Origin: a virus
Reading direction: 5' to 3' (one strand)
IMG/VR virus record: IMGVR_UViG_3300014501_000090
Span: 1 to 20,849 of that record
DNA: 20,849 nt
Program-made: the position numbers and the translations under genes
The notes under the pieces: model-generated
Told to the model about the DNA's origin: nothing
The model's database searches: none
What the model saw: only the letters and a program-made list of their open reading frames with translations
Part shown: one piece after another, positions 5,457 through 20,849 of the stretch
How positions within the stretch are numbered: position 1 is the first letter of the stretch
Layout: every line of letters begins with the position of its first letter

Positions 5457-7010
5457 TTACACCTTCCCGGTCGCCCGCGCAAACGCTTCGGTCAATTCCG
5501 CGCGGATGAGCGACGGAAGCTCCCCTCGCGCATCCTCGACTGCTCTGCGAATAGCAGTTCGAATCGTCTCCGGCCGCACGAATGCCGCCGAGGCGGCACG
5601 GTCGATTTCCGCGGCCTTGGCCGCCGCCGCGTCGGCAGCGTGGATTGCCTGCATGAGCCGGCGCGCAGCGTCGGCAATCTCTGTTTGCCCCTCCTGCGAC
5701 GCTCGGCTCTCGGCGGCCGCGACGCCCCGCCGGTAAACCTCGCCGCGCTTGATGACCGGGTACTTCCAATGCGCCTCGGTATCGACCCCCGCCAGGTCGT
5801 CCACGGCTAGAGAATCGTCGGGATGAGCGGACCGGTGATCTTCGGCGGTGAACGACCAGGGGGCGTCAGTCAGCTTACCTTGTGCGATCAATGCCTCGGC
5901 TCGGGCATAGCCGGCGTGGTGCAGATGAATTCCCGCCGTGCCTTTCAACTTTGCATCGACCGGCGGCTGCGTCGGCGCGTCGAACGTCGAGCCGCAGTAT
6001 TCACAGGTATAGCCGGGCGATTCTTCGGGAGGTGCCGATGAGTCCTGCGCCCGTCGAGCCACACCATCATTACTGCCGCACTGCGGACACGGCGGCATAG
6101 GCTCCGCGAGAACGTTCGCCGAAGCGGTTGGCGAATCAGCGGGGGCGAGGAGCGCCCCGCCGGCGCCTGATTCGGCAGCTTTCGCATCGGATGGGGAAGT
6201 GTCCAGCACAATGATCTCGCGTTGCAGGGCCGGTCCGGCGTTGGGAGTAACGGTCCGCAGTGCGGACCCTACGGGATCGGCTGCCCGGTAGCGCAGCGGG
6301 CTTCGCCATCCGTCGAGGAACGGCGTCATGGCCTTGGTGATCAGCTCGGCGACGCCGGAATCGAACACGCCCGCCTCGACGCCCTTGGCGACGGCCAGCA
6401 TCTCGGCTTCAGGGTTGCACGGCACCGGGACGACGCTGTATTCGATCCCCGCCCAGCGGTCGATGACCGGAACGCCTTTCAATTCAGGCCGGCGGGCGAT
6501 TTCCTCGCCCGTGGCCTCGCGGATGTTCAGCGGCAGGAAACCGATGCTCTTGCCGGTGCAGGTCGGCACCGGCTGCTGCAACAGGTGCAGCACCGCCGAC
6601 GGCAGCCAGGGGGCATCGCCCCAGTCGGCCGGTTTGGCCGGATAGTGCGTCTTGGCGATGAGCCGGCTCCCGGCCGCGGCTGATTTCGGTTTGATCCACC
6701 AGCACGACCCGGCCGGGAGCTGCCGGTAATCGTGCGCAAACGGCACGACGCGGTTATACGCCGACCAGTCGCCCCCCGCCGGCAACACACATTCGCGGTC
6801 GCGGTCGAGGGCGTCGGTGGTAATGGTGCTGACGTCGGTGCGCTCGCCGGGGTCCAGCTCGAGCTCCGCCGCGGGAGCCGAGCGGCGCCGGTAGCCGAAA
6901 TCGCGGGGCAGCCCGCGCGACAGCGCGTCGATCCGCCGGGCCGTGGCCTCGGGGAGGAGAAAACCTGAGGCGGCGTGTTCGACGATAGTGGGGAGGGTTC
7001 TGGGCTTCAT
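5457..7010 (-). CDS. HK97-type prohead protease with zinc-ribbon insert
   Basis: This 517-aa enzyme would cleave capsid precursors during head maturation. Residues about 50-215 resemble the prohead serine protease: VSTITTDALDRDRECVLP, then VVPFAHDY carrying the likely catalytic His, and EYSVVPVPCNPEAEML carrying the likely catalytic Ser. Next comes an Ala/Ser linker, a CPQC...CEYC pair that looks like a zinc ribbon, and then a conserved-looking block (HWKYPVIKRGEVYRRG). The C-terminus is an Ala-rich helical region, possibly coiled coil or scaffold. Family members are usually about 200-300 aa, so the C-terminal half is an extension. I chose the ATG at 7010, 34 nt after the portal stop; the longer reading frame starts inside the portal gene. 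No Shine-Dalgarno sequence is visible. Confidence 0.78.
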   Translation of the reverse strand: MKPRTLPTIVEHAASGFLLPEATARRIDALSRGLPRDFGYRRRSAPAAELELDPGERTDVSTITTDALDRDRECVLPAGGDWSAYNRVVPFAHDYRQLPAGSCWWIKPKSAAAGSRLIAKTHYPAKPADWGDAPWLPSAVLHLLQQPVPTCTGKSIGFLPLNIREATGEEIARRPELKGVPVIDRWAGIEYSVVPVPCNPEAEMLAVAKGVEAGVFDSGVAELITKAMTPFLDGWRSPLRYRAADPVGSALRTVTPNAGPALQREIIVLDTSPSDAKAAESGAGGALLAPADSPTASANVLAEPMPPCPQCGSNDGVARRAQDSSAPPEESPGYTCEYCGSTFDAPTQPPVDAKLKGTAGIHLHHAGYARAEALIAQGKLTDAPWSFTAEDHRSAHPDDSLAVDDLAGVDTEAHWKYPVIKRGEVYRRGVAAAESRASQEGQTEIADAARRLMQAIHAADAAAAKAAEIDRAASAAFVRPETIRTAIRRAVEDARGELPSLIRAELTEAFARATGKV

Positions 7011-8628: not shown

Positions 8629-10248
8629 TCAAATACCCACATCCACATCGCGCCACGCCCTCGGGTCCCTTTCGTTTTCGCTTGCGTCAGCCGCCTCCGC
8701 GCCCTCCGCCGCCTGCCTTCCCACCCCACGCGCTCCCATGCGTTTCTGCACCCACATGGCGGCGTGGGCCAATTCATCGACTTGATCACTGTGCTCGCTG
8801 TTGGGCCAGGAGAGCAGTTCCTGTTGCAGGTCCCAGAGCCACGGAGCGTCCTTCTTGAAGTAGACGGTGCCGGCGGCCATGCGGATCTCGGCGGTTTCGC
8901 TGCGTGCTTCCTTGCTGCCACGGGCCGGGATCGCTTTGACCGTAAGGCCGCTGGCCTTGATCGTCTGCAGGATGCCTTGCCCGATGCCGTTCTTTTCCAC
9001 GCCGATCCAGGGCAGTCTGAAGTGCTCACAGATTTTGATGGCCTCGGTTACGACCTCAGGGGCTTCGAGCTGTCCTCGGAAATGGTGCACCTTGAGCATC
9101 TCGCCGCCGGGCGTGATGGCCCATACGCCGATCACGGTGTAGCAGGGGTTATAAGCGCCCCCACGGCCGGAGGCGCTGGTGGTAGCGGGGTCCATCATGC
9201 CGAAGTGGTCGCAGTCGTCGATCGGGACGCGTTTCGGCCCGAGGCCGTCGCCGTGCAGCGTGTAGAACTCGCCGTCTTCGGTGAAATACCGGAACCACTC
9301 GCGCTTGAACCGTCCGCCGCCGGCCGGGGCGGGACGCTGCTGGAATTGGCCGGCGTACCCCATCGGGCCCAGACGCAGCTTGAAATCGGCGATTTCGCCG
9401 GCGCCGATCCTCTGGGGCCAGAGGAGTTCGCCCTGGGCGCTGCGCGGGTCGGCCCAGCCCAGCGATGTGGCGCAGCGCCGCTCCGGCTCGAACTCGGCGG
9501 GCAGGCACAGGTGCTCGTAGCCGCCCTGCTTGAGCACGTGGCCGGACAGGTCGCCGTCGGTGACGCGCTGCATGACAATCACTTTTGCGCCGGTCCGCGG
9601 GTCGTTCAGGCGGGTGCTCATCACTTCGTCCCACCAAGTGAGCGTCTCTTCGAGTTTCTTTCGGCTATCCTTTTCCTTGACGTTGTGCGGATCGTCGACG
9701 ACCACGATGTCGCCGCCTTCGCCGGTGTTGGACCCTCGGACGCCGGTGGCGATCCGGTAACCGGTCTGGTCGTTGTCGAAGCGGGTCTTGGCGTTCTGGT
9801 CGCCGGTGAGACGGAAGCGATCGCCCCACCGTTCCTGGTACCAGGGCGAGCCGATGATGGAGCGGCACTTGCGCGAATCGCGGGTGCTTAAGCCGGCAGC
9901 GTAGGCACTGTACAGCCAGCGCGTCTGCGGCCGTGATGCCCACAGCCAGCACATCCAGAAGACCGACACGCACAGGCTCTTGGCGTGGCGCGGCGGAACG
10001 TTGATCAGCAGGTTCCGCAACTGTCCTGCCGACACCGCTTGCAGGTGCTCGCAGATAGCGTCGAGGTGCCAGCCCGGCACGAACACAGTTCGCGGCTCGA
10101 CGATGTGCCAGGCGCTCCGCACGAAATCATGCAGGCTCGCCTGGCACAGGGCCGCTTCGATCCGCGCCAGCGTCGGGACCGGGTAAGCATCGCGCATCAG
10201 CGTCGCCATCGGCGGCGGGGAGTTCAACGGATTTGCTTTTTTTTCCAC
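8629..10248 (-). CDS. terL: terminase large subunit
   Basis: This 539-aa protein is the packaging motor ATPase and headful nuclease. NVPPRHAKS (residues 83-91) is the deviant Walker A of phage terminases. IVVVDDPH (181-188) is Walker B, and EGGD/RGSN precede it. The nuclease half shows MMDPATT (D353), VEKNGIGQG (E418) and HSDQVDELAHAAMW (D488, D491), fitting an RNase H-like metal site. The start is uncertain: GTG at 10248 gives a 122-nt overlap with the small subunit, while ATGs at 10209 and 10197 give shorter overlaps. An A8 run follows the GTG. The last 40 residues are charged and probably disordered. Confidence 0.93.
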   Translation of the reverse strand: MEKKANPLNSPPPMATLMRDAYPVPTLARIEAALCQASLHDFVRSAWHIVEPRTVFVPGWHLDAICEHLQAVSAGQLRNLLINVPPRHAKSLCVSVFWMCWLWASRPQTRWLYSAYAAGLSTRDSRKCRSIIGSPWYQERWGDRFRLTGDQNAKTRFDNDQTGYRIATGVRGSNTGEGGDIVVVDDPHNVKEKDSRKKLEETLTWWDEVMSTRLNDPRTGAKVIVMQRVTDGDLSGHVLKQGGYEHLCLPAEFEPERRCATSLGWADPRSAQGELLWPQRIGAGEIADFKLRLGPMGYAGQFQQRPAPAGGGRFKREWFRYFTEDGEFYTLHGDGLGPKRVPIDDCDHFGMMDPATTSASGRGGAYNPCYTVIGVWAITPGGEMLKVHHFRGQLEAPEVVTEAIKICEHFRLPWIGVEKNGIGQGILQTIKASGLTVKAIPARGSKEARSETAEIRMAAGTVYFKKDAPWLWDLQQELLSWPNSEHSDQVDELAHAAMWVQKRMGARGVGRQAAEGAEAADASENERDPRAWRDVDVGI

Positions 10249-10657
10249 GGGAGAGAAGGGCCAGGCGAAGCAGGGCGATCATCTGGCGTTGTTGCTCGAC
10301 GGTGAGCCGGCCCCAGTCATACATTTCGCGCTTGCGGGCGGGCCGTTCCTCGCCGGGTTGGTTGCGTCGGAACTGCCTCCGCCAGCGCCGTTCCAGCACC
10401 CACGCCGACGCCTGCCAGGCCGCCGACTTGGTGATTTTGGTCAGGTGGTGGACTTTTCCCTTGTGGATCGCCTGGCGCAAGCCGCGTTCGAACATGGGAT
10501 CGCTTTGCCGCCTGGCCCGGATGACCGAAACCGGCACGCCGGCACATTCGGCGGCGTCTTTCAGCGATGTCCCCACGCTGACGCAGCCGTAAACGAGGCC
10601 GACGCCAACATCGGTGAGGCTGGCCTCACCGACCGGCTCACTGGATTCTGCATTCAT
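10127..10657 (-). CDS. terS: terminase small subunit
   Basis: This 176-aa protein would recognise the packaging site and hand DNA to the large subunit. Residues 18-55 form a helix-turn-helix-like segment (GCVSVGTSLKDAAECAGVPVSVIRARRQSD). AAWQASAWVLERRWRRQFRR (79-98) matches the W..ERR motif typical of small terminases. The C-terminal 40 residues, after the A8 tract, are Gly/Pro/Asp-rich and overlap the large subunit gene. The ATG at 10657 lies 11 nt after the stop of the proline-rich gene. The position directly upstream of terL makes the call firm, although the primary sequence is divergent. Confidence 0.8.
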   Translation of the reverse strand: MNAESSEPVGEASLTDVGVGLVYGCVSVGTSLKDAAECAGVPVSVIRARRQSDPMFERGLRQAIHKGKVHHLTKITKSAAWQASAWVLERRWRRQFRRNQPGEERPARKREMYDWGRLTVEQQRQMIALLRLALLSRGKKSKSVELPAADGDADARCLPGPDAGADRSGPVPGEPA

Positions 10658-10668
10658 GAAAAATGGGC

Positions 10669-11532
10669 TTACTTCGCCGCCGCTGAGGCGCCGGGGACAT
10701 TGACCGTGCCCTCAGCCGCGGCCCCGCCCTGGGCAGCCTTATGGGCCACCACGGCGGCCGCCAAGTGGGCACGGGCGGAGATGACATCGGGGTCCTTGGC
10801 GGCGGCCTCACGCTCGATCTGGGCGATGCGCTGGCCGGCTTCCAAGCCGCGCCGGGCGACGGGGAGGATCTGGTCGTCGTCACCCTTTGCTCGCAGAGCG
10901 GCTACTTGATCCTGGGCGGCCTGCTTGTCGCTGACCGCGGCCTTGTAGTCCGGGTCCTTCCTCAGAGTGTCGCGCATCCGCTCCATGGCGGCATCGAGTT
11001 CCGCGGTCGCCTGGGCTACCGCCGGGTCAGCCGCCGGGGCATTCGACGGCTGAGAGGTCGGGCTCGATCTCGGCGCCGGCGGGGTCGCCGGGGCAGAAGA
11101 ATCGCCAGTTGCCGCGGCACTGGAGTTATCCGGAGGTGTCGTTGGAGCTGGATTGCTGGACGAACTGGTGTTCGTGTTCTCGGTAGTCCCAGGATTCGAC
11201 CCGTTGTACGGATATCCATAGGGATAGCCATACGGATATTGGCCGTACGGGTATCGATTGTTGGGGAATTGGTTGCTGGGATTGGAATTCTGAGTCCCGG
11301 TGGACTGACTGCCGGTCGGCGGGGGCTTTGAAGACGAAGGGGGCGGGGTTTGCGAGGGCGAACCGGAGCCGGGCTGCCGCGGCGGGGCCGGTTGTGGCTG
11401 CTGCGGCGGCGGCGGCGGTTGCGGGGGTTGCCCGCTTGCCGGCGGCTGCTTGGGGTTCCCGGCTGCCGTGAAGGCGAAAACGCCGAGCGCCACTGAGGAA
11501 ACCGCGACGATCACTGCATGACTCTTTTTCAT
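10669..11532 (-). CDS. exported Pro/Tyr/Gly-rich paralogue, no heme motif
   Basis: This 287-aa protein begins with a signal or anchor segment (residues 4-24: SHAVIVAVSSVALGVFAFTAAG). A disordered Pro/Gln/Ser region (28-90) follows, then a tract of Tyr-Pro-Tyr-Gly words (94-109). After another Pro/Ser/Thr linker comes a helical C-terminal domain (168-270: AVAQATAELDAAMERM, DPDYKAAVSDKQAAQDQV, GLEAGQRIAQIER). The C-terminal domain is closely similar to that of the gene at 12627, so the two are tandem duplicates. The ATG at 11532 has GAGGTG 4 nt upstream. It is not a recognisable virion protein and looks host-like. Function unknown; an envelope-associated role is inference. Confidence 0.75.
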   Translation of the reverse strand: MKKSHAVIVAVSSVALGVFAFTAAGNPKQPPASGQPPQPPPPPQQPQPAPPRQPGSGSPSQTPPPSSSKPPPTGSQSTGTQNSNPSNQFPNNRYPYGQYPYGYPYGYPYNGSNPGTTENTNTSSSSNPAPTTPPDNSSAAATGDSSAPATPPAPRSSPTSQPSNAPAADPAVAQATAELDAAMERMRDTLRKDPDYKAAVSDKQAAQDQVAALRAKGDDDQILPVARRGLEAGQRIAQIEREAAAKDPDVISARAHLAAAVVAHKAAQGGAAAEGTVNVPGASAAAK

Positions 11533-11615
11533 CGGGCACCTCTGCGAACGGTCATCGCCGTGGCGATTTGAAACCGGCAGCGCCAAATCAGAAACTAAAT
11601 GGCTACTCTGGTTGG

Positions 11616-11644
11616 ACGATACCTCGCGCGTCATTTTGACGCAA
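11616..11644 (-). promoter_or_regulatory. candidate promoter of the second paralogue
   Basis: On the minus strand a -35-like TTGCGT (11639-11644) and a -10-like TATCGT (11616-11621) are separated by 17 bp. The same layout with the same -10 occurs before the paralogue at 12627. GCGTCA and TGACGC (11628-11642) form a 6-bp inverted repeat over the -35 side, a possible operator. Confidence 0.45.
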
Positions 11645-11712: not shown

Positions 11713-12627
11713 TTATTGGACAGCCACGGCACCGGCTGGAAGCGGGGACGCCTGTGCCGCCGTACCGCCGCGGGCGGCACTGTGGGCAGCCAGCGCTGCG
11801 GCGAAGCGGGCGCGGGCAGCGATCACGTCAGCGTCCCTGGCGATGGCCTCGCGCTCGATCTGGGAGATGCGCTGGCTGGCTTCCAAGCCGCGCTGGGCAA
11901 CGGCGAGAACCTGGCCATCGTCCCCCTTGGCACGCAGAGCGGACACTTCATCCTGGGCGGCCTGCTTGTCGTTCAGGGCTGCCGTGTAAGCGGGGTTGCT
12001 TTTCAGTGTTTCCTTCAATCGCCCGATGGCTGCATCCAGTGCCGCCCTTGCCTGGGTAAGCGCCGGGTCGACTTCAGCGGCAGTGTCCGATGGTGCCGTG
12101 GTCGGGCTCGATTTCTGCGCCGCAGGCGCCGGGTCGGGAAGGTTGGTGATCAACGGCGCTGCCGGATCGACCGGGGGTGTCGCAGGGGGCGCCGCAGGAG
12201 GGTTGGTGTTGGCTGTGGGATCGAAAAACCCGGTTGTCCAGCCGCTGTACGGATATCCGTAGGGATAAGTGTTGTAAGGGTATTGTCCGTTGGAATTGGA
12301 GGTCGAGGTTTGAGACCCGGTAGACGGCGAGTTTGAACCAGTATAATAGGGCGGCGGGGGTGCGTCCGGTCTCGGAACGATGTTCAACGTATTGGGGCCG
12401 TAACCGGCGTTGTGGCAACTGTAGCAACTGCTGGTAATGATGTCGTGCTTCGGATTCGTGCCGGGGGCCTGGAAACCCTTCGTTGGCGATGCCGGCGGGT
12501 CTTGTTGGGACGATTGCTGCGGTCGTCCGCTCGCTTGAGGGAAGCGCGGATTTCCTTCCGCTTTCCATGCCAGGACGCCAAGAGTCAGAGCAGAAATGAC
12601 CCCGATCAGCGCGTGAATCTGTTTCAC
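11713..12627 (-). CDS. exported Pro-rich protein with one CxxCH heme motif
   Basis: This 304-aa paralogue of the 11532 gene has the same plan: signal/anchor (residues 3-22), a Pro/Gln linker, then SSCYSCHN holding C68, C71 and H72. That is a single c-type heme attachment motif absent from its sister. A Tyr-Pro-Tyr/Gly tract (116-127), a Pro/Ala linker and a helical domain (188-285) follow. The likely start is GTG at 12627, with GGAGGTG just upstream; the longer reading frame would add 18 residues before the signal segment. Only one heme motif in a largely disordered region means heme binding is plausible but unproven. It lies between the ABC-ATPase/GNAT gene and its sister copy. Confidence 0.75.
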   Translation of the reverse strand: MKQIHALIGVISALTLGVLAWKAEGNPRFPQASGRPQQSSQQDPPASPTKGFQAPGTNPKHDIITSSCYSCHNAGYGPNTLNIVPRPDAPPPPYYTGSNSPSTGSQTSTSNSNGQYPYNTYPYGYPYSGWTTGFFDPTANTNPPAAPPATPPVDPAAPLITNLPDPAPAAQKSSPTTAPSDTAAEVDPALTQARAALDAAIGRLKETLKSNPAYTAALNDKQAAQDEVSALRAKGDDGQVLAVAQRGLEASQRISQIEREAIARDADVIAARARFAAALAAHSAARGGTAAQASPLPAGAVAVQ

Positions 12628-12713
12628 CGGGCACCTCCGTGAAAAGGGAACCGTGGTGGCGATCCGCAGCCGGCAACGCACGCAAGTTCGACAAGAATCG
12701 CCTGGAAAGACCG

Positions 12714-12835: not shown

Positions 12836-13909
12836 TTACCGATATTCGAACGAGGCCACGGCCCTTCCCGCACTCAGCCCATCCGAGCCTGCCCCGCGCT
12901 TTCGGCAATCGCGGCGGCGTTGGAAACCGGTCTTGCGGAACCCCACACACTTCCAGTTCAGGCTCCTGCCCAGCGACGCGATCATCGAAGGGTGCGAGGT
13001 CGTCAGGTTCACACGCCGGCCCATCGCCCGGCGCAGCGAAGCAACTGCATCGAGCACCCGTCCGCCGATCCCCAGGCCCTGATAGTCGGGCAGCACAACG
13101 ATGCGGGAGACCCGGTCCCGGCCGACCCGGCCTGTAAGCGGCAACACCGCGCAGAACGCCGCCGGCTGACCTTCCCACGTCGCCAGATAACACTGGGCGG
13201 CGGGGTGAAGGCTGCCGTTCAGATAGTGATGGCGCGCAAACAGCCGCCAAGCCGCACCCCGGCAACGAAACAGCTCGATTTGGATTTGAGGGCGCCGAAG
13301 CCGCCCCCTTGCCAGCTCACGGCTGGCCATATCGACCACCCAGTCCGGCTCGAGCCATTGCGCAATGTCGTAATGGCAACTGACGGCAACGAACTTGCGG
13401 GCGATCTTCCCAGAGCGGATGGCCCGCGCCACCGCCGCCGACCCCACGCGGGCGACCGTGCGGTCCACAACGCTGGTGAACTCATCAAACACCACTAATT
13501 CCCGCCCCGCCAGCAGTGCTCGGGCCAGGTCGCAGCGGAACTTTTCGCCGTTGCTAAGCACCGCATACGGCTTGACCCAGGCCGGCGGGCTGCTGAAGCC
13601 GACTGCCGTCAGGGTCTGCGTGACGTGCTTCACCGGCAACTCGCCGAACCCGTCGATCACCGCCCGCGCGGCATCCCATTCGCCCGCCTGGTGGACGTCC
13701 GAGCCGAACGCTTGGCGGGCGATGGTGGATTTCCCCGAGCCGGAGGGGCCGACGATCAGGCCGATTTGCCAATCCTCGTCGGGCGAAGGGACCTCGACGG
13801 AGAATGTCTCCTGGCTGGTCTCGGCCAGCGCAAGGTCGAACATGCCGGCGATCTGAGAGACGCGGAACGATGGGTGAACGGGGCAGGAGACGGTGGCGTG
13901 AATGAGCAC
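12836..13909 (-). CDS. ABC-type ATPase fused to GNAT acetyltransferase
   Basis: This 357-aa soluble protein has a complete ABC nucleotide-binding domain: Walker A GPSGSGKS (54-61), signature LSNGEKFR (118-125, a variant of LSGGQ), Walker B LVVFDE (138-143), D-loop SVVD and switch His179 in VSCHYD. Residues about 208-335 form a GNAT domain with the acetyl-CoA loop PDYQGLGIGGRV (274-285). There is no membrane segment, so it is not a transporter. The architecture corresponds to the conserved group of ABC ATPases fused to a predicted acetyltransferase (COG2401), whose role is unknown. The GTG start at 13909 is supported by GGAGGAGGG (13919-13927), whose last bases touch the hexamer array. Neighbours are the ParB-like gene upstream and the exported paralogues downstream. 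Confidence 0.85.
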   Translation of the reverse strand: MLIHATVSCPVHPSFRVSQIAGMFDLALAETSQETFSVEVPSPDEDWQIGLIVGPSGSGKSTIARQAFGSDVHQAGEWDAARAVIDGFGELPVKHVTQTLTAVGFSSPPAWVKPYAVLSNGEKFRCDLARALLAGRELVVFDEFTSVVDRTVARVGSAAVARAIRSGKIARKFVAVSCHYDIAQWLEPDWVVDMASRELARGRLRRPQIQIELFRCRGAAWRLFARHHYLNGSLHPAAQCYLATWEGQPAAFCAVLPLTGRVGRDRVSRIVVLPDYQGLGIGGRVLDAVASLRRAMGRRVNLTTSHPSMIASLGRSLNWKCVGFRKTGFQRRRDCRKRGAGSDGLSAGRAVASFEYR

Positions 13910-13925
13910 GGCTCATATCCCTCCT

Positions 13926-14045
13926 CCTAATCCTAATCGTAATCCTAATCGTAATCCTAATCGTCGGTTCCAAAGCGGGGCCTCCCATGACCTCCCATGG
14001 CACATTGCGATTACGATTACGATTAGGATTACGATTAGGATTAGG
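13926..14045. repeat. inverted hexamer arrays (GGATTA/CGATTA), copy 1
   Basis: On the + strand 13926-13963 reads as CCTAAT and CGTAAT hexamers. 14008-14045 reads as CGATTA and GGATTA hexamers. The two 38-bp arrays are reverse complements with one mismatch, separated by 44 nt. They lie between the ParB-like and ABC-ATPase/GNAT genes. Confidence 0.92.
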
Positions 14046-14074
14046 AAGGCGAATGGATAGTGGACATCCAACAG

Positions 14075-14641
14075 TCACGTCGTCAGCACCCGGCACTGCA
14101 GCCCCTCGCCCGTCAGCCGGTCGTACACTTGCTGCTGCTCGGCTTCGTCCCGGCATTCGACGACGACCTGGAAGGACTCCCCAACGGTCGCCTCTTCGGC
14201 GGAGCCTGTCGGCTCGACCGCTCCCAGGCCGGCATCGAGCTTCGCCAGTTCCTCCGGCGTAAACCCGACTCCGGCCAGGTCGAGGCCTACTTCGCCGGCC
14301 AGGTGAGTCAACTCGGGGACGTCCCAGGTACTCAGCTCGTTGGAACGGTTGTCTCCGACGGCGAGCTGCGCCTTCTGGCGAGGCGACAGCCCGCAGCGGC
14401 GGACGGCGACGAGCGTCTTGCCGTCGGCATCGACGACGCGAACCTTTTCGATTCCCGCGCGGCCGGCGGCGGCGAGCACGCCGTTGCCCGCGAGCACCAC
14501 GCCCTGTTCGTCGATCACGATCGAACGTGCCGCGCCTACCTGCCCCAGCAGATCGGCGATCACCTCCAGGTTCCGCTCCGGATGACGCCGGGCGTTTTTT
14601 GGGTCGGAGGTCAGGTCGTTAATGCTTTGGATCGATTTCAT
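14075..14641 (-). CDS. ParB-like (ParB/Srx-fold) phage protein
   Basis: This 188-aa protein has a ParB N-terminal-like domain (residues 3-100). DPKNARRHPERNLEVIADLL is followed by IVIDEQGVVLAGNGVLAAA, where AGNG replaces the GxGR-type box of chromosomal ParB. SPRQKAQLAVGDNRSNEL follows. No helix-turn-helix for parS binding is evident. The C-terminus (about 154-188) has a short alpha/beta segment. Such phage proteins often lie near terminase genes or DNA methyltransferases; possible roles are CTP-dependent DNA binding, nuclease or packaging regulation. The ATG at 14641 follows GTGACAAACG with no Shine-Dalgarno sequence. The gene is bracketed on both sides by inverted hexamer arrays. Confidence 0.8.
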   Translation of the reverse strand: MKSIQSINDLTSDPKNARRHPERNLEVIADLLGQVGAARSIVIDEQGVVLAGNGVLAAAGRAGIEKVRVVDADGKTLVAVRRCGLSPRQKAQLAVGDNRSNELSTWDVPELTHLAGEVGLDLAGVGFTPEELAKLDAGLGAVEPTGSAEEATVGESFQVVVECRDEAEQQQVYDRLTGEGLQCRVLTT

Positions 14642-14674: not shown

Positions 14675-14822
14675 CTAATCCTAATCGTAATCGTAATCCT
14701 AATCGTAATTGTAATCCTGGTTTGTTATTGGTTAGGTCATGGGCGGAGCCGCCTGGAAATCGACGATCCCCGACCAACGATTAGGATTAGGATTACGATT
14801 AGGATTAGGATTAGGATTAGGA
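14675..14822. repeat. inverted hexamer arrays (GGATTA/CGATTA), copy 2
   Basis: The left array at 14675-14716 (CTAATC/GTAATC words) and right array at 14778-14822 (CGATTA/GGATTA words) are inverted relative to each other, with a spacer of about 60 nt. Same word family as 13926-14045 but with a different order of variants. It fills most of the gap between the 205-aa gene and the ParB-like gene. Confidence 0.9.
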
Positions 14823-20520: not shown

Positions 20521-20563
20521 TGCTAGCCCCTTCCATATAGATTGCCGGGGTGGGGTACAAAAG

Positions 20564-20849
20564 GTGAAACGTGAAGACGTGAAACGTGAAAACGTGAAAA
20601 CGTGAAAACGTGAAACGTGAAGACGTGAAACGTGAAGATGAAAACCTGAGGAGTTGAGGACGTGATGGCTGCTGATTACTTGATGTGTCTGCGTCCACGT
20701 TTTCACGCTTCACGTCCTCGCGTTTCACGTCTTCACGCTTCACGTCTTCACGTTTCACGTCCTCACGTCTTCACGTTTCACGTCTTCACGTCTTCACGTC
20801 TTCACCTCTTCACGTTTCACGTCTTCACGTCTTCACGTTTCACGTCTTC
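20564..20849. repeat. large inverted array of ACGTGAA words
   Basis: This fills nearly all of the 329 bases right of the HTH gene. The left array (20564-20638) repeats GTGAAAC/GTGAAGAC words of 7-9 nt. After a spacer (20639-20692) the right array reads as TTTCACG/CTTCACG words and continues to the window edge. The arms are inverted, and the right one is at least 150 nt long. No gene is seen in it. Confidence 0.92.

Follow-up and report, generated by a model that had tools for sequence, protein, structure and literature searches.

We predict that two adjacent genes of a tailed-phage fragment, one encoding a ParB-like protein and the other an ABC ATPase fused to a GNAT domain, form a phage cassette for ATP-dependent acyl-CoA:DNA-base modification that protects the phage DNA, and we put the probability of this reading at roughly 0.6. 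The strongest evidence is that known DNA-modifying enzymes replace the ABC-GNAT protein beside relatives of its ParB-like partner, for which reason ABC-GNAT is itself a putative DNA-modifying enzyme.

The fusion protein and its surroundings

The window, by which we mean the whole stretch of DNA analyzed, is a linear virus record of 20,849 bases (IMGVR_UViG_3300014501_000090) and represents a planctomycete-type phage fragment. Its minus strand encodes a portal, an HK97-type capsid protein, a head-tail adaptor, a terminase large subunit (TerL; 8629-10248, minus strand; PHROG 38, 1.1e-81; Pfam Terminase_6C) and a terminase small subunit-like (TerS-like) protein (10127-10657, minus strand; PHROG 4102, 2.2e-06). 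Short tandem repeats of 7-8 bp were seen near both contig ends, at 20560-20849 and 162-225 (CACGTCTT; CAAATGA).

The fusion gene (12836-13909, minus strand; 357 aa) is read from 13909 to 12836, starts with GTG and carries an AGGAGG-like site ahead of the start. Its product matched PHROG 11143 end to end (residues 11-356, E 1.1e-102), and the Pfam families ABC_tran (4.3e-08), Acetyltransf_7 (1e-07) and Acetyltransf_1 (1.6e-07) were matched as well. The AlphaFold2 model (mean pLDDT 89.3, pTM 0.83) consisted of two domains, of which residues 1-205 (13295-13909, minus strand) showed the ABC nucleotide-binding domain fold (Z about 14-15) and residues 207-357 (12839-13291, minus strand) the GNAT fold (Z 16.1 to 1y9k and 15.4 to CoA-bound 1yvk). 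Among the 60 matches listed in a sequence search of solved structures, generic ABC proteins alone were retrieved.

Walker A (G54-K60), the signature (L118-S-N-G-E122), Walker B (D142-E143), the D-loop (V147-V-D149) and the H-loop (H179) were all located in the ABC half, and the cores of Walker A, Walker B (DE), D-loop and H-loop were invariant in 100 homologues. The L, S and G of the signature were likewise invariant and its N occurred in 55%, and LSNGEK is a normal signature variant for this family. The alignment would place D86 at the expected Q-loop position, and on the same reading the expected glutamine is apparently an aspartate in 98% of the 100 homologues. The GNAT half contains H228-Y229, R269, a P274-D-Y-Q277-G-x-G280-x-G acyl-CoA motif and H306-P307; in the 100 homologues the Q-G-x-G and the His-Tyr pair were invariant, and the two residues of the His-Pro pair were conserved at 97% (H) and 100% (P). 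Since the ATPase and acyl-CoA motifs are intact and the folds match, both halves look catalytically competent as judged from the sequence. Thus, Pfam, PHROG 11143, the model and conservation agree with the first-pass annotation, which had described a complete set of ABC motifs with LSNGEK, no membrane part and a fused GNAT domain. A GNAT half unable to bind acetyl-CoA, which was to have refuted its proposal, is not what the data suggest, given the invariant Q-G-x-G and the fold matches to CoA-bound GNATs.

The nucleotide-binding fold of the ABC half is common to ABC transporter ATPases; unlike these, however, the fusion has a GNAT domain attached, no membrane domain and Asp at the expected Q-loop position. 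An assignment as an ABC transporter was rejected, as the fusion has no transmembrane stretch (maximum 19-residue Kyte-Doolittle value, 0.90) and no permease adjoins it, the neighbors being ParB-like, secreted-type, TerS-like and TerL genes. Among anti-phage defense models, the matches were confined to two from the MADS system, a partial one to mad3 that covers 70 residues around the ABC signature and a weak one to mad8 at the P-loop. In one viral contig (L022, positions 528-1651) and its duplicate L023, the reading frame of ABC-GNAT is interrupted within the ABC domain, ahead of the H-loop; this may reflect a frameshift or damage to the copy, not a clean separation into two genes.

The first-pass annotation had also placed the fusion beside a ParB-like gene just upstream of terminase. 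The ParB-like neighbor was confirmed (PHROG 620), but the terminase lies farther off, with two secreted-type paralogues (12681 to 10669) and the TerS-like gene intervening. The latter is homologous to the gene that separates ABC-GNAT from TerL in many related loci, where it usually stands alone between the two. The paralogues (10669-11634 and 11713-12681, minus strand) are proline-rich proteins, 46% identical and with signal-like N-termini, one of them carrying a CxxCH motif; in L002 and L003, the closest relatives, one gene of this kind was observed. In addition, two long palindromes lie at 13925-14046, before the ABC-GNAT gene, and at 14675-14822, before the ParB gene. They are composed of runs of TCCTAA/TCGTAA hexamers with arms of ~39-42 nt, and the loop of one is related to that of the other in inverted orientation, as though a small repeat element were present in two copies; the palindrome pattern used found no match in other viral contigs.

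The ParB-like partner and its C-terminal tail

The ParB-like ORF (14075-14641, minus strand; read from 14641 to 14075) encodes 188 aa of the type that is fused to phage DNA methyltransferases (PHROG 620/498). It matched PHROG 620 at 3.3e-24 and PHROG 498, 'DNA methyltransferase', at 2.9e-21, the latter via the N-terminal ParB part of the profile; Pfam ParB_N gave no match to this protein. Foldseek comparison of the N-domain of its model (pLDDT 82, pTM 0.59) yielded ParB and Noc structures (6sdk, 7bm8) as top matches, with modest scores.

To survey the pairing, 26 viral-contig ABC-GNAT loci, the best 80 of 338 bacterial-genome stretches (by their titles, all Planctomycetota) and four phage records were used. 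A ParB-like gene was found to end just before ABC-GNAT in 101 of the 103 loci with enough upstream sequence, with a median gap of 57 nt, although the 101 loci are not independent, since most are related planctomycete prophages. The same order recurs in Pseudoalteromonas phage SL25, Gordonia phages NHagos and Sisko, Rhodococcus/Gordonia phage Jace and Arthrobacter phage EastWest. It is also kept where the fusion is split at the domain boundary into an ABC gene followed by a GNAT gene, both behind ParB, as in Lactococcus P335, Oenococcus Vinitor-27 and Streptococcus MismyG. The pair is therefore present in unrelated phages, with hosts among Actinobacteria, Firmicutes, Proteobacteria and gut bacteria, and the pairing is not due to chance. 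This near-universal recurrence supports the proposed two-gene unit, with DNA as its probable target, a proposal that a lack of recurrent pairing was to have refuted. No recognizable ParB or tail was found beside the fusion homologue in L011, L091, PX29 (L154), P12024S (L155) and VmeM-32 (L212). In MismyG (L210), the split ABC and GNAT genes are followed by a gene annotated as ASCH domain-containing (6075-6443). ASCH has a PUA-like fold, and PUA-like domains are candidates for the reading of modified bases.

The survey also bears on control of packaging or head filling, a role suggested for the pair in the first-pass annotation, in which it would act with the terminase. TerL of the window type does lie downstream in 65 loci, typically ~1.0-1.2 kb away and with a TerS-like gene between. 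However, no terminase occurs among the annotated genes around the unit in EastWest, Komp_PAO1_1, Porphyromonas phage007a, PX29 and P12024S, and the unit is found beside a sliding clamp in EastWest and after tail-fiber genes in Komp_PAO1_1. Because copies occur away from any annotated terminase, the packaging role is weakened, and we regard it as very unlikely.

What proved constant in the ParB partner was a stretch of ~35 residues at its C-terminus rather than the ParB domain. This tail, corresponding to residues 153-188 in the window (14078-14185, minus strand), has the consensus F.V.VEC.DE..Q..YERL..EG..CRVLTL. When the consensus was searched against 50,697 phage records, 23 matched, of which 21 were ABC-GNAT records as well and the other two (E 8-9) were transketolases, that is, chance matches. 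Furthermore, the tail is encoded by a mini-gene of its own immediately ahead of ABC-GNAT in Porphyromonas phage007a (42 residues), Pseudomonas Komp_PAO1_1 (49 residues) and a gut phage (at most 55 residues). The near-obligate partner of ABC-GNAT is thus the tail rather than the ParB domain and, being constant across loci and encoded on its own in some of them, the tail is probably a docking adaptor to ABC-GNAT.

The tail also matters for the idea that a ParB with an ABC partner serves plasmid-like partition or replication control. The likeness of the N-domain model to ParB and Noc structures agrees with that idea, but the ParB part is missing where the tail alone is kept (L153, L156 and L213), the ATPase is of the ABC type with a GNAT domain attached, and no ParA was present among the scanned genes of the window, itself a fragment. 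We consider partition extremely unlikely.

Enzymes beside ParB relatives and the proposed function

From viral contigs, we gathered sequences related to the P335 ParB domain irrespective of the presence of ABC-GNAT. Among the long ORFs, 18 of 20 matched N6_N4_Mtase and 19 of 20 matched ParB_N, identifying them as ParB-methyltransferase fusions. Short ParB relatives were followed by TAGT glycosyltransferases, a Tet_JBP oxygenase or a PAPS-reductase-like protein, and others by TGT-like proteins, Mom or other DNA methyltransferases; Mom-like genes adjoin such ParBs in Microbacterium phage Antuna and Arthrobacter phage Sonny. The tail was present in two short relatives, L195 and its near-duplicate L196, and ABC-GNAT follows L195. 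A ParB-like gene has also been reported among the first five genes of a Rhodococcus phage, at the head of a proposed thymidine hypermodification operon (PMC11955845), and the ParB-ABC-GNAT-formyltransferase genes of Gordonia NHagos occupy the same genome position as those proposed hypermodification genes.

By analogy with TmcA, the unit might instead carry out ATP-driven acylation of tRNA or another RNA, which we judge quite improbable. The tRNA acetyltransferase TmcA joins an ATPase module to a GNAT domain and acts on a nucleic acid, so the combination as such is known, and tRNA-acting relatives exist for the TGT-like partners of the ParB family. However, TmcA differs from the cassette in its helicase-like, non-ABC ATPase, its tRNA substrate and the lack of a ParB. 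The ParB-like partners together with the methyltransferase, Mom, TET and TAGT neighbors point to DNA, and TGT relatives act on DNA too, as in Dpd systems (PMC12839542).

In several branches further enzymes follow the unit. A formyltransferase (PHROG 9240 / PF00551) was encoded directly downstream in L024-L027, L029, L153, L156, L211 and L213, the carriers being Gordonia NHagos and Sisko, Komp_PAO1_1, Porphyromonas phage007a, a gut phage and four viral contigs. Inspected by eye against known motifs, these proteins seem to have replaced the canonical formyltransferase asparagine. In Jace, the next two genes encode an aspartate decarboxylase (PF02261, 2e-33) and a CoA-transferase III-like protein (PF02515, 2.2e-08). 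Judging from these partner genes, the acyl group may be of the aminoacyl type, for instance glycyl or beta-alanyl, with formylation as a later step. No formyltransferase was found beside the fusion of the window, formyltransferase matches being confined to other branches, and acetyl-CoA itself may serve as the donor in the branch of the window.

ATP-gated acetylation, as the first-pass annotation had it, could have a protein as its substrate, although the evidence for this is poorer than for DNA-base acylation. The GNAT domain would then acetylate a protein of host or phage, for example RNA polymerase, a nuclease or a defense protein, with the ABC and ParB parts as DNA- or ATP-sensing gates. 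The closest GNAT folds do include the protein acetyltransferases RimI and Ard1/Naa50, and protein-acetylating phage GNATs such as Rac are known (PMC7824862). Nevertheless, members of the ParB partner family are elsewhere associated with enzymes that modify DNA, and formyltransferase, aspartate decarboxylase and CoA-transferase partners better fit an elaborated small-molecule mark; overall we hold protein acetylation to be unlikely.

For DNA-base acylation, we propose that the GNAT half moves an acyl group from acyl-CoA onto a base of the phage DNA, and that the ABC half, likely in the form of an ATP-dependent dimer, would bind DNA or drive the enzyme along or onto it. The ParB-like protein would bring the complex to DNA or sense a nucleotide, and its tail, in view of its constancy and of the stand-alone tail genes, may dock it on ABC-GNAT. 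In some phages the downstream formyltransferase, or the aspartate decarboxylase and CoA-transferase, could elaborate the mark or supply the donor. By analogy with other phage DNA modifications, the purpose is most likely the shielding of phage DNA from host nucleases. If this is right, a widespread phage gene family whose members now bear the labels 'ABC iron siderophore transporter' or 'hypothetical protein' serves DNA modification, phages gain a further route past restriction, a new mark joins the known DNA bases, and tail-bearing ParB-like genes become a usable marker for finding the system. The mass of the modified base can then be guessed in concrete terms from the formyltransferase, decarboxylase and CoA-transferase partners.

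A more specific version, which we put forward tentatively and consider improbable, is that the cassette aminoacylates the base with a glycyl or beta-alanyl group from a CoA ester, that a GART-like formyltransferase formylates the resulting glycinamide-like adduct, and that the ParB tail, as a dedicated adaptor, loads the ABC-driven acyltransferase on DNA. GART-like formyltransferases formylate glycinamide ribonucleotide. Were this version true, it would represent a new DNA base-modification chemistry and, as far as we know, the first acyltransferase that modifies DNA with the power of an ABC ATPase.

Relation to known systems

DNA acylation by such proteins is not a new idea, since PMC7824862 cites Iyer et al. 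(2013) for the earlier prediction that GNATs coupled with ABC ATPases acylate DNA bases. The 'unknown system' of the first-pass annotation is to be taken with this qualification. The predicted ABC-coupled GNAT system (Iyer 2013; PHROG 11143) has the same domain pair in the same phage setting; in the passage on it in PMC7824862, no ParB partner, tail adaptor, or formyltransferase or CoA-transferase partner is mentioned. Our literature searches retrieved no description of the tail adaptor or of donor or partner enzymes, none of the ParB pairing (which Iyer 2013 itself may mention), nothing on COG2401 or on ParB with TET and glycosyltransferase, and no measured modified base for an ABC-GNAT cassette.

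Phage ParB-methyltransferase fusions (PHROG 498) use the same ParB-like N-domain together with a DNA-modifying enzyme; in contrast to the cassette, they contain a covalently attached N4/N6 methyltransferase in place of a separate ABC-GNAT, and they lack the tail. Mom of phage Mu is, like the GNAT half of the fusion, a phage enzyme of the GNAT superfamily, and Mom-like genes too adjoin ParB-like genes (L145, L149 and L204). An invariant His-Tyr near the GNAT start is shared as well (H58-Y59 in Mom, H228-Y229 in the fusion), a two-residue match that may be chance. Unlike the fusion, however, Mom has no ABC domain and its alignment no QGxG acyl-CoA motif, and the ParBs beside Mom are without the tail. 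For the comparison, the Mom profile was built from a diverse set from annotated phages, the close relatives of Mu Mom in viral contigs all being too alike for use in a profile; membership of the GNAT half in the Mom family was rejected, with no PF25680 match at E 0.1 and an hhalign probability of 0.2%. In Aeromonas phage PX29 (L154/L147), a Mom-like gene and an ABC-GNAT gene are present at separate sites.
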